A stretch of 64,000 nucleotides of DNA from Verrucomicrobiota bacterium (GTDB taxonomy: Bacteria > Verrucomicrobiota > Verrucomicrobiia > Verrucomicrobiales > DEV007): assembly GCA_030625775.1 (NCBI GenBank), contig DAOUQC010000003.1, forward strand, positions 1 through 64,000. The letters run 5' to 3'. This document shows, one piece after another, positions 1-12,000 of this stretch. Made by a program: the position numbers and the translations under genes. Numbering within the stretch: position 1 is the stretch's first letter; each line of letters starts with the position of its first letter. The notes beneath the pieces are model-generated. The model was not told where the DNA came from and did not search any database. It saw nothing but the letters and a program-made list of their open reading frames with translations.

Positions 1-9
1 AGCATCGCG

Positions 10-330
10 ATGTTCAGGCACCCCCTTCCTAAATACCTAGAAAGTTTTCAACTTTTTACTGATGCAAGAATCATCTCATCAGGTTTCTGTGTCGAAGACT
101 GCTGTCCCTCGATGTGGGTGAGAATCACTGAATCCACTGACACCGTAATCTTCCACTCACCCCACAAGAGTATTGATATGTCAGGAACACAGGAACAATG
201 TGGGGACTTTCGATACGAACTCGATAAGACTCAGTTTCTTGACGTTTCGCATAGACTCCTAGGAGACGCCCTTGTCATGGTTACCACTCGATTTCAGAAC
301 CACCTTAACGAGCAACATAGAAGCACCTAA
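10..330 (+). CDS. Hypothetical cassette-borne protein
   Basis: 106 aa ORF filling the first cassette, ending inside the attC-like site; no family recognised. Confidence 0.4.
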   Translation: MFRHPLPKYLESFQLFTDARIISSGFCVEDCCPSMWVRITESTDTVIFHSPHKSIDMSGTQEQCGDFRYELDKTQFLDVSHRLLGDALVMVTTRFQNHLNEQHRST

Positions 331-453
331 CAAATCGTGGCTGCGAACAGGCTCCCCGCCGAGAGTTGAAAATTTCTATGCAAATTCTAACATTAACCTT
401 GAAATCAGAGCGCGCTCTCAGGTAGCCTGTCCGCAGCACTCAAACGTTCTCTC
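324..453 (+). repeat. attC-like recombination site 1
   Basis: ACCTAAC (325-331) ... arms GCTGCGAACAGGCT (340-353) / AGCCTGTCCGCAGC (424-437), 13/14 complementary ... GTT at 446-448; unpaired G at 340 possible, 9 nt after AAC. Confidence 0.65.
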
Positions 454-494
454 TTAAAGTTGACGTCTTGACGTGAATCAACGATGCTTCCCAC

Positions 495-704
495 ATGCAA
501 AGCATGATTGAGATTCAGAAACAAGCGGATCAGTTATCGACCGAGGATAAGGCCGGATTGGCTGCCCACCTTCTGGCATCATTGGCATCGCCACCGCTCG
601 GTGCTGATAACGCTGAAATTGATCGTCGAGATGAGGAAATGGACTCAGGTTTAGTCCAGCCTATTTCACACTCCGACTTTTTAACAGAAGTTGGTCGTAA
701 ATGA
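495..704 (+). CDS. Addiction module antitoxin (short acidic antitoxin component family)
   Basis: 69 aa, stop overlaps downstream ParE-like ORF by 4 nt; sequence style of the putative addiction module component family; start may be ATG at 504. Confidence 0.75.
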   Translation: MQSMIEIQKQADQLSTEDKAGLAAHLLASLASPPLGADNAEIDRRDEEMDSGLVQPISHSDFLTEVGRK

Positions 705-994
705 AAGATGCGGTCTATCACCCCAAGGTGCCTTCCGAGGTTCGAGATATCATTGAGTATTACGAAGGGATTTCAGCACCTTTGGCAGACGAATTTTGGG
801 AAGAGCTCACATCGGCGATTCAATATGCTCAGGAATATCCCGAACGGCACCATTGGGATGCAAGTGGCCGGAGGCGGAGCAATCTAAAGCGTTTTCCGTA
901 CCATTTTCTTTTCCGCCTTTTTGATTCTCATATCCGCATTACTGTTATTCGTCATCATAGTCGAGATCCTAGCTTTGGCAGTAGGCGCGCTTAA
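701..994 (+). CDS. Type II toxin, RelE/ParE family
   Basis: 97 aa; YHPKVPSEVRDIIEYYE...FPYHFLFRLFDSHIRITVIRHHSRDP typical ParE pattern. Confidence 0.85.
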   Translation: MKDAVYHPKVPSEVRDIIEYYEGISAPLADEFWEELTSAIQYAQEYPERHHWDASGRRRSNLKRFPYHFLFRLFDSHIRITVIRHHSRDPSFGSRRA

Positions 995-1026
995 GCCTCC
1001 TGAATGCAAACAAAGCTCTAAATTTG

Positions 1027-1155
1027 GAGAGAACAAAACGCAGCAGAGCAACCCGCTACCGCTCCGCAGTCGAAATCTAAATGAAAACTTTAACCCTCAA
1101 CTTGAACACGAAAGCTCGCTGCCAGTAGCGGGTTGCCTGTGCTCGACGCTATCTC
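1027..1155 (+). repeat. attC-like recombination site 2
   Basis: GAGAGAAC (1027-1034) ... perfect 12-bp arms GCAACCCGCTAC (1048-1059) / GTAGCGGGTTGC (1125-1136) ... GACGCTATCTC (1145-1155), with GCT where GTT is expected. Confidence 0.6.
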
Positions 1156-1193
1156 AATAGAAGAAGCTTGAGGCTATTTGTCTTTTTGGTATA

Positions 1194-1409
1194 TTGATTT
1201 GTATGAGTATCGCAGAAATCGAAAACATGACGACTTCCGAACGTCTCCGCACGATGGAAGCACTGTGGGATGCGATTTGTCATGACTCCGCCGAGCCTGA
1301 TTCTCCGGGCTGGCACGAAGATATATTGAGTGAGCGCCGTAAAAAAATCGAATCAGGTGAGGCGAAATTTATTTCTTTGGAAGAAGCCAAGCGACGCCTG
1401 CAAGGATGA
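1194..1409 (+). CDS. Addiction module antitoxin (second copy)
   Basis: 71 aa, ...TTSERLRTMEALWDAI...SPGWHEDILSERRKKIESGEAKFISLEEAKRRL; 4-nt overlap with toxin ORF. Confidence 0.8.
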   Translation: MICMSIAEIENMTTSERLRTMEALWDAICHDSAEPDSPGWHEDILSERRKKIESGEAKFISLEEAKRRLQG

Positions 1410-1711
1410 CTGTCTCTGAGGTTGTTTTTCTTGAAGAGGCCATCAGCGACTTGGAAGAAGGCCGTCAATTTTACGAATATATAGAAGAGGGTATTGGAAT
1501 TTATTTTATCGATTCTTTATTGGCAGATGCCGCTTCACTTCAGCTTTATGCCGGTATTCACTTAATCCATTACGGATATTTCAGAATGTTGGCGAAGCGT
1601 TTCCCGTTCGCAGTTTATTATGAAATTGAGAATGGAATTGCGAGAGTGGTTGCTATTCTTGATATGAGACAGGATCCACTAAGTATTCGTAAAATTTTGA
1701 ACGAGAGATAA
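1406..1711 (+). CDS. Type II toxin, RelE/ParE family (second copy)
   Basis: 101 aa, VVFLEEAISDLEEGRQFYE...RFPFAVYYEIENGIARVVAILDMRQDP. Confidence 0.8.
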   Translation: MTVSEVVFLEEAISDLEEGRQFYEYIEEGIGIYFIDSLLADAASLQLYAGIHLIHYGYFRMLAKRFPFAVYYEIENGIARVVAILDMRQDPLSIRKILNER

Positions 1712-1837
1712 AGACAACAAGATGTCGATCCTAACGCCTGCCCCGCCGCGAGTCGAAATTATCATGACTATTCAACCATCAACACAGAAGTCGGAGCGCG
1801 CCCTCGGTTAGGCGTAGGATGACTAGCACGTTGATAT
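1705..1837 (+). repeat. attC-like recombination site 3
   Basis: CAAC (1715-1718); arms GTC-g-ATCCTA-a-CGCCT (1724-1739) pair with AGGCGTAGGATGAC (1810-1823), 14 bp with two bulged bases confined to the left arm; GTT core at 1830-1832. Confidence 0.7.
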
Positions 1838-2071
1838 GGACACGAGCTCATCGCGCAGGTGCGTATCGCTGATCAGAAAAAGGAATAAGGCTGGGCGGCT
1901 CGGTGCTGGGGTCATGGCGTGAATTGGAGTGGAGAATTTCCTTGCCAAGGATGTTGCTCTTATCGTGAAATAATTTTACTTTTTTCTGACTCCGTGACGC
2001 TGATTGAGTGTTCATGGGGTGTGACTGCTTCTCTAAACGATCATTATACTTATCCCGCTCTCCCTCTCCCA

Positions 2072-3484
2072 ATGTTCGATACGATCTTCCACTACCTGAC
2101 CGTTGTTTATTCCACCTTGTTGCTTCGTTATCTGATTTTTGCGGGGATCGGCTTTCTTCTTTTCTATGTGTTTCTGCGTGATTATCTGCGCAACAAAAAA
2201 ATACAGCCCGGCTTTCCGCGAGGCGCTGATTATCGGCGTGAAATCTGGTATTCTGTCATCTCCCTGCTGATCTTTGCTTTTATTGGCTGGCTGGTGATCG
2301 GGCCGCATGCCCGTCCCTACACAAGGTGGTATTTCCATTTTAGTGATTACGGTTGGGGTTATTTTATTTTTTCCGTGGCCGCTATGATTGTGGTTCACGA
2401 TGCCTACTTCTATTGGACGCATCGCTTGATGCACTGGCGACCGCTGTATCGGCGGATGCATAAAATTCATCACGACTCGAGCAATCCAAGTCCCTGGGCA
2501 GCCTTCTCTTTTCATCCTCTGGAGGCAGTGGTGGAGGCAAGCATCGTCGTGGTGTTTGCCTTTCTGTTTCCTATTCACCCGTTTGCCATGGCACCGTTTT
2601 TCCTGTGGATGACGGCTTTCAATGTCAACGGTCACCTGGGTTACGAACTGTTCCCGTGCTGGGTCACTCGCAGTCCGCTGACAAGATGGGTGAACACTTC
2701 AACCAATCACAATCAGCACCATAAATATTTTCAGGGAAACTATGGGTTATATTTTCGCTGGTGGGACAAGTGGATGGGAAGCACGCACGAACAATACGAA
2801 AAAGAACTGGCGGAGGTGCAGCAGCGTTCGTTCGTTGCAGAGGATCGCCGTTTGGAATGGGACACTCAAGTTCGCAAGCTCTGGTTGCTGGCACCATATT
2901 TCGCGGTTGGGCTTGGATTATTTGTTTTTAAAAATGCCTGGCTAGCCCTGCTGTCATTCCACGTCTGTATGATCACTGCTCTGGTGATTCATCGTGCTCA
3001 ATGGAATTTTGCCAAGCTGTGGCAGGGCGGGCGTCTGCTCTGGTTGGCAGGGGGCACTCTGACTGTTTTTGGTTTCGGGTGGTGGCTTTCCAGCTTGGCG
3101 GGTCAGTATGAAGGCTACGGTGGCCGTCTCGCGGGAATGATGGAGGAGGTGGGTTTGCATGGTGTATCGCTGGCCGCTTTCGCGATCTATTTTTGTGCTG
3201 TGAATCCTGTGCTGGAGGAAGCGTTCTGGCGTGGGCTTTTTGGCAACAAAGGCAAACGTCCAATTTTGGCCGATTTGGCCTATGGCTGCTTTCACTTTTT
3301 GGTGCTCTTGCCGTTCACCGATGCCTACTACGCCACGATTGGTGCGGGAATGCTGGTGGCCATGGGCTATCTATGGAGGCAGGTCGCCAACCGTTCGGAC
3401 GGTCTGGCGCTTCCAGTTGCATGGCACGCCTTAGGTGACGCATCGGTCGTTTTTGTCGTCGCGGGACTGTTGCAGGGGTATTGA
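2072..3484 (+). CDS. Fatty acid hydroxylase/sterol desaturase family protein fused to C-terminal CPBP-like intramembrane protease domain
   Basis: Histidine boxes HDAYFYWTHRLMH, HKIHH, NHNQHH; C-terminal EEAFWRG, CFHFLV and WHALGDA motifs; ORF open from 1919 but ATG at 2072 fits the domain start better. Confidence 0.8.
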   Translation: MFDTIFHYLTVVYSTLLLRYLIFAGIGFLLFYVFLRDYLRNKKIQPGFPRGADYRREIWYSVISLLIFAFIGWLVIGPHARPYTRWYFHFSDYGWGYFIFSVAAMIVVHDAYFYWTHRLMHWRPLYRRMHKIHHDSSNPSPWAAFSFHPLEAVVEASIVVVFAFLFPIHPFAMAPFFLWMTAFNVNGHLGYELFPCWVTRSPLTRWVNTSTNHNQHHKYFQGNYGLYFRWWDKWMGSTHEQYEKELAEVQQRSFVAEDRRLEWDTQVRKLWLLAPYFAVGLGLFVFKNAWLALLSFHVCMITALVIHRAQWNFAKLWQGGRLLWLAGGTLTVFGFGWWLSSLAGQYEGYGGRLAGMMEEVGLHGVSLAAFAIYFCAVNPVLEEAFWRGLFGNKGKRPILADLAYGCFHFLVLLPFTDAYYATIGAGMLVAMGYLWRQVANRSDGLALPVAWHALGDASVVFVVAGLLQGY

Positions 3485-3592: not shown

Positions 3593-4354
3593 ATGCTCAT
3601 CAAGCCCAATATTCCCTCCGATAATCGCATCGCCCTATTTATCGATGCCGATAATGCTCCAGCAGCAAAGATTGATTTTATTATTTCTGAGCTTGCTACT
3701 TATGGAGTGGTGAATATCAGACGTGCTTACGGTAATTGGAAAAAAACAGCACTCTCCGGGTGGGAAAAGGTGTTGCATGAGTATGCGGTCAAACCCATTC
3801 AGAATTTTGATATTGTGAAAGGCAAAAATGCCTCTGATATGGCCTTGTTGATTGATGCGATGGACACACTTTACACAAAGGATGTCGAGATATTCTGCTT
3901 GGTTTCATCAGACTGTGACTTCACGCCGCTGGTTCTGCGTTTGCGCGCAGAGGGGAAGCAGGTGATTGGTTTTGGTCGGAAAACCACACCTGAGCCATTT
4001 GTTAACTCCTGCAGTAAGTTCCTATATCTTGATGAGGAAACGTCTGCCAAAACTTCCAAAAATAAGAAAGAGGTGTCGATCAATCAGTTAAAAGGAAATA
4101 CTAAGCTGATGAATACCCTGCGAAATGCGGTTAAGGCGGCTACTGAAGATGATGGCTGGGCGCCACTCGGGCCGGTAGGCTCGTATATATCCAATCAAGG
4201 CCCCTTTGATCATCGTACTTTCGGTTTTGAAAAGTTGAGCGATATGTTTGCGGCGATTGACCTTTTTGAAGTGAAGCAAGTCCAGCGTGATCAACAAAAA
4301 GTAATAAGGGTTCGCTTGAAAAAACCAGCAGTGAGGAAAGCTTCAAAAAAATAG
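3593..4354 (+). CDS. NYN domain protein with C-terminal OST-HTH/LOTUS-like domain
   Basis: ALFIDADNAPAAKIDFI...LVSSDCDFTPLVLRLRAEGKQVIGFG (NYN/PIN-like); C-terminal DDGWAPLGPVGSYI... winged-helix style. Confidence 0.85.
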   Translation: MLIKPNIPSDNRIALFIDADNAPAAKIDFIISELATYGVVNIRRAYGNWKKTALSGWEKVLHEYAVKPIQNFDIVKGKNASDMALLIDAMDTLYTKDVEIFCLVSSDCDFTPLVLRLRAEGKQVIGFGRKTTPEPFVNSCSKFLYLDEETSAKTSKNKKEVSINQLKGNTKLMNTLRNAVKAATEDDGWAPLGPVGSYISNQGPFDHRTFGFEKLSDMFAAIDLFEVKQVQRDQQKVIRVRLKKPAVRKASKK

Positions 4355-9067: not shown

Positions 9068-12000
9068 TCACTTTTCCTTACGGTACAGGGATTTGATGTC
9101 TTCGAGGATCAAATAATTGATTGGAACAAGGAAAAGCGTGATGGCGGTGGCAAAAAGGATGCCATAACCGAGGCTGATAGCCATGGGAATGAGGATTTGT
9201 GCTTGAGTGCTTTTCAACTGTAACAAGGGGTAGAGACCGGCAAAAGTGGTGATGGAGGTCAGCAGGATGGGGCGAAAGCGGGCGGCCCCGGCGTTGTGGA
9301 CGGCTTCAAAGAGGGAAACCCCTTCTTCCTTGACCTTGCGATTGATAAAATCGACCAATACCAGGCTGTCGTTGACCACCACTCCGGAGAGCGCAAGCAT
9401 ACCAAAATTACTGAGCATGCTCAGGGTGTGGCCTTCGATCAGGTGGCCGATCACGGCGCCGATGAGGCCGAAAGGGATGACCGACATGACGATGAGGGGT
9501 TGCACATAAGAGCGAAAAGGGATGGCGAGCATGGCATAAATGCCAAAAATAATCAGCAAAGTGCCGGCCAGCATGGCGGTATTGGCTTCGCGCTCATCGC
9601 GGGCTTCGCCTTCGAAGCTGTAGCGCATGCCGGGATAGTCGCGGATGAGAGTTTGCATGAATTGGCTGAGATCTGAACGAATCGAATCGAGGTCAGCGGT
9701 TTTTTTGTCAGCATCGGCGCGGATGTTCAGGGCGCGGTGGCGATCAATGCGCTGGATGCGGGGAAAACTGCGGCCGATATTTGCGGTGGCAACTGTGGTG
9801 AAGGGGACTTCTTCTCCGTCGGAGGTGCGGATGCGCATGTTGTCGAGGCTGGCGAGCGAGCGGCGGGCATGCTCGGGGTAACGCATCATCACTCGCACTT
9901 CATCGCGTCCTCGTTGCAATCGTTGGATCTCTTCTCCGTAAAAGGCCTGTCTGACCTGGCGGGCCAGATCGGCCATGGTGAGGCCGAACTGCTCCGCTTC
10001 GGGTTTGATGCGCAGTTGAATTTCGGCTCTGCTCTGGTCAAGGCTATCGGAAATATCGAAGAGTCCGGTGTAGGTTCCGAGTTGCTTGCCGACCAGGGTG
10101 GCTGCCTCGGTGAGCTGGTCGGGTTCGGGGCCGGTGAGTTGGATGTTGATGGGGTCACGCCCGCGAAACATCTCGGCGCGGAAATAGAGTTCTTTTGCCC
10201 CGATGATTTCGCCGATGCGTTTGCGCCAGTCTTTGACGATGGCGACCGAGCTGATTTGCTTGCTGCGTTCTTCCGGGGGGGTGAGATTGAATACAACTTC
10301 ACCGAGATGGCTTCGCCCTTGTGAGCCTTTTGAGCGGGATGAGGAAAGTCCCTGTCCTCCGATACTGGTGATATTGGCTTCAATCATCGATTTACCGTTT
10401 TCATCGACGTACACTTTTTTCATGTCATCGACAGCTTTTTCGATGCGTAGAATGTGTCCTTCGGTGATGTGGAAGGGAGTGCCTTCCTGCATCGTCAACC
10501 GGCAGGTAACGGTTTCACTTTCGATGCGGGGGAAGGGAACCCGTATGATACGCCCCCCTGCGATGAACCCGATGAAGAGAACGAGCGTGGCGACAAAAAT
10601 TGAGAGGGTGAGGTAACGCCATTGCAAAGCCCAGCGCAGTGCGGGTTGATAGATTTTTTCGATTAATAGCTCCAGCCCGCGGGAAAATAATCGTTGGATG
10701 CGATTGAAGAAAATGTAAAATTTGCTGCATATCCTGAAGATGAAAGAAGGAAGGAACAATTCCCATAGGCTGGAGTTTTTATTTCTCAGGCTGTGCGCCA
10801 GATGGGAAGGGAGAATGAGTTTGGATTCCACCAGAGAGAAAGCGAGGACAGCGATCACGATAATGGCAATCTGGCCCTGCCACTTGCCGTGAAAACCAGT
10901 AGACATCATCATTGGAACGAAAGCAAGCATGGTCGTTAGCACCCCGAATACGACAGGTACAGCGACTTCCTTGGCGCCTTCCACTGCTGCGGTTTGCGAG
11001 TCGATGCCGCGTTGATTCCAGGTGTAAATGTTTTCGCCACAGACAATGGCGTCGTCAACCACCACGCCGAGCACCAGGATGAAAGCGAATAAGCTGACGA
11101 CGTTGATGGTGACACCGAGGTAGGGCATCAGCGCCAGGGCACCAAGGAAGCAGACAGGAATGCCGATAACGACCCAGAATGCGAGGCTGGGTCGCAGAAA
11201 TAAGGTTAGCATAAGGAATACCAGCAGCATACTTTTCCAGCCACTGCTGACGAGGGTGTTTAGGCGTCCCCTGACGATTTTCGAGCGGTCACCCCAGTAG
11301 TCAATGCTGACGCCATCGGGCAGTCGGCTTTTGCTTTCCTCCATGTATTCCTTGATGTCACGGGCAATTTGGATCGCGCTTTGATTTCCCTCGCGAGAGA
11401 CAGCGATGAGCACGCAGCGCTGGCCGTTGTAGCGAGCGATGAAAGGGTTCTCGTTGAAGTCGTTACTGACTGTGGCGATATCGGCCAAAGTGATGCGGAC
11501 ACCGTCTTCACGGGAGCGGATGACGATGTTGTCGAAAGCTTCCCGATTGTAAGCGCGGCCTTTGGTGCGCAGAGCGATTTCTCCCGCAGCTGTTTTCAAA
11601 GTGCCGGCGGAAACATCGATGGAAGAGTTCCGCAGGGCACGGGAGACTTCATCAAAGGTGAGTCCGTAGCGCCGCAGGGTATCTTCGTCAATTTCGATGA
11701 CGATCTCATAAGGCCGGATTCCCTGCAGTTGGGCGTCAGTGACTTCCGGCAGAGCGGCAATTTCATCGCGCACTTGTTCCCCCAGCCTCTTGAGATCGCG
11801 TTCGCTGAGATTGCCGTAGATTACCACGCCGATCACCGAGCGGTAGTAGTCGGCAAGTCGAATTGACGGTCTTTCGGCCAGATCCGGCAGGGTGGATATG
11901 GAATCGATGCGCGATTTTACGTCATTGAGGACGTCACGTCGATCGTGGTCGTCATCGATCTCTATGCTGATCGATGCCGCATTTTCGGTGGCGTAGGAGG

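Follow-up and report, generated by a model that had tools for sequence, protein, structure and literature searches.

Distal end of a probable integron cassette array with two probable toxin-antitoxin cassettes from an uncultured member of the Verrucomicrobiota

Positions 1 to 1839 of the 64-kb stretch of DNA analyzed here (i.e., the window, G000:C119:1-64000) are very probably the distal portion of an array of integron cassettes from an uncultured Verrucomicrobiota bacterium, and we propose that its cassettes move via attC sites and an integron integrase (IntI). We recognize an integron array with two probable toxin-antitoxin (TA) cassettes because of the structure and covariation of the attC sites, an IntI above the TIGR02249 cutoff in the same genome, and a split-attC statistic. 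These results bear out the integron-type array with two TA modules that an earlier note had read from this DNA, the TA assignments being probable. The contig starts at position 1, and hence the array is truncated on the 5' side. The distal end can be placed exactly at 1830, directly before the ten bases GTTGATATGG (1830 to 1839, + strand), and not at about 1836 as initially noted. Integrons of Verrucomicrobiota, as well as CALINs and TA cassettes, have been described before (PMC8618304). The comparison genomes with named records were likewise Verrucomicrobiota, mainly Akkermansiaceae/Verrucomicrobiales MAGs.

By this proposal, the cassettes would travel as R'-body-R''-core units. The attC sites would be single-stranded, with the bottom strand folded, and would serve as substrates of an IntI whose gene lies elsewhere in G000; the recombination chemistry itself is assumed by analogy with the known integron family.

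attC sites and cassette boundaries

The array contains three attC sites on the + strand: site 1 (324 to 453; R'' CACCTAAC at 324 to 331 and R' GTTCTCTC at 446 to 453; core family cl4), site 2 (1027 to 1155; R'' GAGAGAAC and R' GCTATCTC; cl6), and site 3, the last in the array (1711 to 1837; R'' AAGACAAC and R' GTTGATAT; cl5). A simple search for hairpins with AAC and GTT/GCT as anchors gave them stem scores of 16.5 to 19.7, and no hairpin in 30 kb of shuffled control sequence scored above 15.2. The spacing from AAC to GTT/GCT is 114 to 117 nt in all three sites, the 3' box of site 2 being GCT instead of GTT. An extrahelical G lies 9 nt after AAC in each of them (GTG-G-CTGCG, GCA-G-CAG, and GTC-G-ATCC); the earlier observation of this unpaired G in sites 1 and 3 is thus correct and extends to site 2. 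Similarly, the variable regions of the sites are related as first described, yet they belong to three separate core families. The bottom strand of every site folds into a hairpin with extrahelical bases. Relative to shuffled sequences, the folding energies gave z = -3.3 for site 2, z = -2.0 for site 1, and z = -0.5 for site 3, a value that is weak by energy alone.

Covariation, not energy, is decisive for the attC structure. A first MAFFT alignment yielded no consensus structure, the arms having been shifted by the extrahelical bases, and an N-padded alignment solved the problem. When seven attC sites of four contigs were brought into register by hand, 14 of 14 pairs vary on both sides, and 97% of the cells are paired (57% when shuffled and 28 to 42% when slid); an alignment of 136 sites to the model gives 96%. 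The covariance model R3, trained on sites of other genera only to prevent circularity, matched exactly three sites in the window (E = 5e-20 to 3e-19), with none further up to E = 10. These are site 1 (95.8 bits; E = 1.6e-19), site 2 (98.3 bits; E = 4.6e-20), and site 3 (94.4 bits; E = 3.3e-19). Each of the three ORF units described in the earlier note is indeed followed by a palindrome with attC layout. A search of Rfam found no family matching the attC sites. Over the whole G000 genome, R3 detected 17 attC-like sites at E <= 0.01, spread over 11 contigs. Such sites occur on C114, C82, C83, C20, C2, C100, C147, C23, C133, and C63, some of them single or paired deep inside contigs.

The body of cassette 2 (446 to 1034, + strand) runs from R' GTTCTCTC (446 to 453) to R'' GAGAGAAC (1027 to 1034). 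The two boxes are exact complements, in agreement with the reading that a linear cassette carries part of one attC at either end. We scored five variable box positions in 242 related cassettes, each bounded by two sites. The mean number of R'-R'' matches was 3.77 of 5, while shuffling R'' among cassettes gave 2.17 +/- 0.06; none of 1,000 shuffles reached the observed value (shuffle maximum, 2.38). Boxes within one array site, which belong to neighboring cassettes, agreed at 2.18 positions. An earlier set of 94 cassettes had the same outcome. For cassette 3 on its own, the agreement is imperfect (GCTATCTC/AAGACAAC).

Palindromic intergenic repeats of the REP/MITE kind that flank TA genes by chance would be another source of such structures; they are common, and the energy of site 3 is no better than that of shuffled sequences. 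However, the extrahelical bases, the split R boxes, the covariation of all pairs, and the IntI in the genome are at odds with this idea, and 11 related genomes are free of model matches at E <= 0.001. The 242-cassette statistic, together with the matches of the other-genera model in the window, amounts to a refutation in practice, and we regard chance repeats as extremely improbable.

Cassette cargo

Cassette 1 is represented by its 3' part (1 to 330, + strand), an ORF of at least 109 aa truncated by the contig start, for which a family search found none. Cassettes 2 and 3 carry probable Unstab_antitox/ParE-like pairs, as judged from profile matches in which both toxins fall under the Pfam cutoff. 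In cassette 2, the antitoxin gene (495 to 704, + strand) matches PF09720 (Unstab_antitox) above the cutoff at 28.8 bits, and the putative toxin gene (701 to 994, + strand) matches PF05016 (ParE_toxin) at 22.7 bits against a cutoff of 23. In cassette 3 (body, 1148 to 1718, + strand), the antitoxin gene (1203 to 1409, + strand) matches PF09720 at 58.3 bits, also above the cutoff, and the probable toxin gene (1406 to 1711, + strand) is ParE-like at 15 bits. A promoter-like sequence (1168 to 1195, + strand; TTGAGG, a 16-nt spacer, and TATATT with a preceding TG) lies before the cassette 3 antitoxin gene, and cassette 3 may therefore have its own promoter. Both TA cassettes would act as stabilizing addiction modules, at least one of them from its own promoter.

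We know of no experimental work on Unstab_antitox/ParE-like cassettes. A search of the PDB found no sequence relative of the cassette 3 toxin, and a single-sequence structure prediction gave an unusable model (pLDDT, 48). The two cassettes resemble described TA gene cassettes (PMC8618304) in having two ORFs each, the antitoxin first and the stop and start overlapping; they differ in that the pair is Unstab_antitox/ParE-like, with a weak toxin assignment. Directly downstream of the array, the window encodes a fatty-acid-hydroxylase/CPBP (Rce1-like) fusion (1919 to 3484), and a protein with NYN plus OST-HTH/LOTUS domains (3593 to 4354) is encoded shortly after it.

Integrases, candidate attI, and the end of the array

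No integrase was found on C119, the contig of the window. The search for intI in the same genome yielded an IntI of 470 aa on contig C79 (L013:8658-10070; 356.9 bits against the TIGR02249 cutoff of 265), with its integrase-specific patch judged by eye from the translation; attC sites follow the 3' end of the gene. Contig C73 ends within a second IntI, which is truncated and of a short type. IntI above the cutoff occurs in 16 of 38 genomes, and attC sites at E <= 0.001 occur in 27 of 38.

Across the order, we grouped the integrases by eye into three kinds on the basis of length and N-terminal sequence. Kind A is 458 to 472 aa long where intact and has an N-terminal extension, kind B (417 to 531 aa) has a different one, and kind C is about 322 to 340 aa long. 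The attC sites lie upstream of the gene in nine of nine cases for kinds B and C. For kind A, they lie 3' of intI in seven of seven loci with detected sites, as in the inverted integrases already known as a subclade in which IntI is oriented with the cassettes (PMC8352920). Unlike those integrons, the ones found here have an N-terminal extension of about 150 aa without a Pfam match and a conserved attI, AATAAYACT/GTT, 3' of the gene. The two extensions (about 110 to 200 aa), one accompanying inverted and the other classical array orientation, had no Pfam match above the cutoff in the two examples scanned. Our literature search found no account of an N-extended inverted integrase with a 3' attI for Verrucomicrobiota.

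The system shares its attC architecture, cassette size and orientation, and TA cassettes with sedentary chromosomal integrons (e.g., the Vibrio superintegron) and CALINs. The likeness extends to the relative G029, in which about 124 attC sites stand in arrays on one contig. In contrast to those systems, several discrete attC core families occur within one genus and two integrase kinds within one genome. In G029:C1 (L116, L129, L144, L145, L159, and L160), two integrases have opposite orientations relative to their own arrays, and the attC sites fall into two classes by length, about 108 bp and about 127 bp, which are interspersed.

The motif AATAAYACT/GTT is conserved downstream of 21 kind A integrases. 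In L013, the attI-like site lies about 176 to 190 bases past the intI stop at 10070. Inverted repeats (e.g., ACTGTCC...GGACAGT) occur near such sites. The left half CCATATTATACT/GTT is common to C79 and to C187 of the sister species G002, and we propose CCATATTATACTGTTGATATGG as the candidate attI sequence. On C187, an array with a broken kind A integrase ends with the identical ten bases GTTGATATGG that close the array of the window. Joined to this array end, the attI left half forms an inverted repeat, CCATAT-TATACTGTTG-ATATGG (CCATAT-N10-ATATGG). An inverted repeat is expected for the core site of a tyrosine recombinase.

The contig opens inside cassette 1, and a physical link of the array to an IntI and attI may be read from the motif at the array end. 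The bases at 1830 to 1839 are probably the displaced right half of an attI, or else an attG target. On the simplest reading, insertion at attI would have pushed the right half to 1830, and the shared array end leans toward an attI-based array. Such an array would have grown at an inverted (i.e., 3'-side) attI, for which the site next to the C79 integrase is the likeliest candidate.

As a variant of this explanation, the cassettes may have been put into a genomic nonclassical site (attG) by IntI acting in trans, forming a CALIN that was never attached to attI; attG-site insertion has been published (Loot et al. 2024, as cited in PMC12901181). A general target of the attG type is possible because the C20 array, whose left flank does not resemble attI, ends with GTTGATATGA, which is nearly the same as GTTGATATGG. 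The spread of attC sites over 11 contigs and a chromosomal flank unlike that of the sister integrons also speak for a CALIN. Against it stand the 10/10 match of the right end to an integrase-linked array of a sister species and the inverted repeat that this end forms with the attI left half of the genus. We consider the CALIN variant a realistic, if somewhat doubtful, possibility. A search of the three genomes of the genus did not detect the empty site ATTATACTGTTGATATGG, and the single match with two mismatches to the empty attI, on C102, was set aside, the stretch read there giving no evident sign of an integrase. A synteny comparison found no link of the window to C79 or to the sister integrons, and the flanks are not syntenic.

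attC cores in cassettes of sister species

At least seven discrete families of attC cores occur across the genus, most of them common to several species. Copies of cassette 3 are present in G001 and G002 beside other neighbors, with boundaries at R' and R''. Three cassettes, cassette 3 included, match their sister-species copies through R'' (86 to 88%) and then continue into a core of a different family. Cassette 3 and its G001 copy (L134:305-872) are 87% identical from R' to R'', followed by core cl5 in G000 and cl6 in G001. A C20 cassette of G000 has core cl9 where its G001 and G002 copies have cl6, and a C83 cassette has cl5 where its G002 copy has cl7. The swapped cores are 58 to 61% identical, a level not above that of random core pairs in the genus (62 +/- 12%). 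The core is kept in two other orthologous comparisons (86% and 89%) and in about 45 duplicate pairs within G029 (82 to 100%), and thus cores normally travel with their bodies.

A crossover at R'' can part a body from its core, while the canonical crossover at R' cannot. The attC cores of this genus might be modules separable from the cassette, with site-specific exchange at R'' retaining the body and R'' and gaining a core of a new family; we advance this idea tentatively and with considerable doubt, on three cases from draft MAGs. Cores would then sometimes be swapped at R'' independently of the body, for example if IntI used the top strand in its folded form. Recombination of the top strand occurs about 10^3-fold less often than that of the bottom strand (PMC5371416), a frequency that would suit core exchange as an infrequent and older process. 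For the three counted swaps, we set aside chimeric assembly, inferring that the switch, which shares only about 8 to 9 nt, is too short for a k-mer chimera. Further candidates at contig ends (L148/L149/L150 and L213/L223) were left uncounted. Apparent swaps with R'' CACACACA were also discarded, as group II introns adjoin several of those attC sites. Group II introns (Rfam D1-D4 families) abut or lie near attC or attI in L286, L233, L251, L049, and L167.

The core changes could instead stem from homologous gene conversion of one attC core by another; we regard this cause, in place of a site-specific exchange at R'', as equally speculative and rather unlikely. Gene conversion has been proposed to homogenize 59-be sites in Vibrio (PMC1382264), and some cores in G029 are more diverged than their own bodies. 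However, the switch points of the three swapped cassettes all lie no more than about 2 nt from the R'' AAC, and the outer stem is replaced too, in a region where the two core families have hardly any sequence in common.

As an integron array, the one described here is ordinary, and its lineage is under-studied. One paper (PMC4792948) states that cassette genesis has so far no reliable model, and a tie between this process and the homogeneity of attC sites has been suggested (PMC8352920). This lineage combines large integrons, cassettes that cross species, several integrase kinds, a recognizable attI, and attC core families common to species; comparing sister species therefore offers a way to ask how genes gain their attC sites. 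The core changes, a side observation that merits a systematic survey, are a possible lead on cassette formation. If cores are separable, a small set of them would be reused on many genes, and this would point directly to the way in which attC sites are acquired by cassettes and to why these sites are so alike within a taxon.
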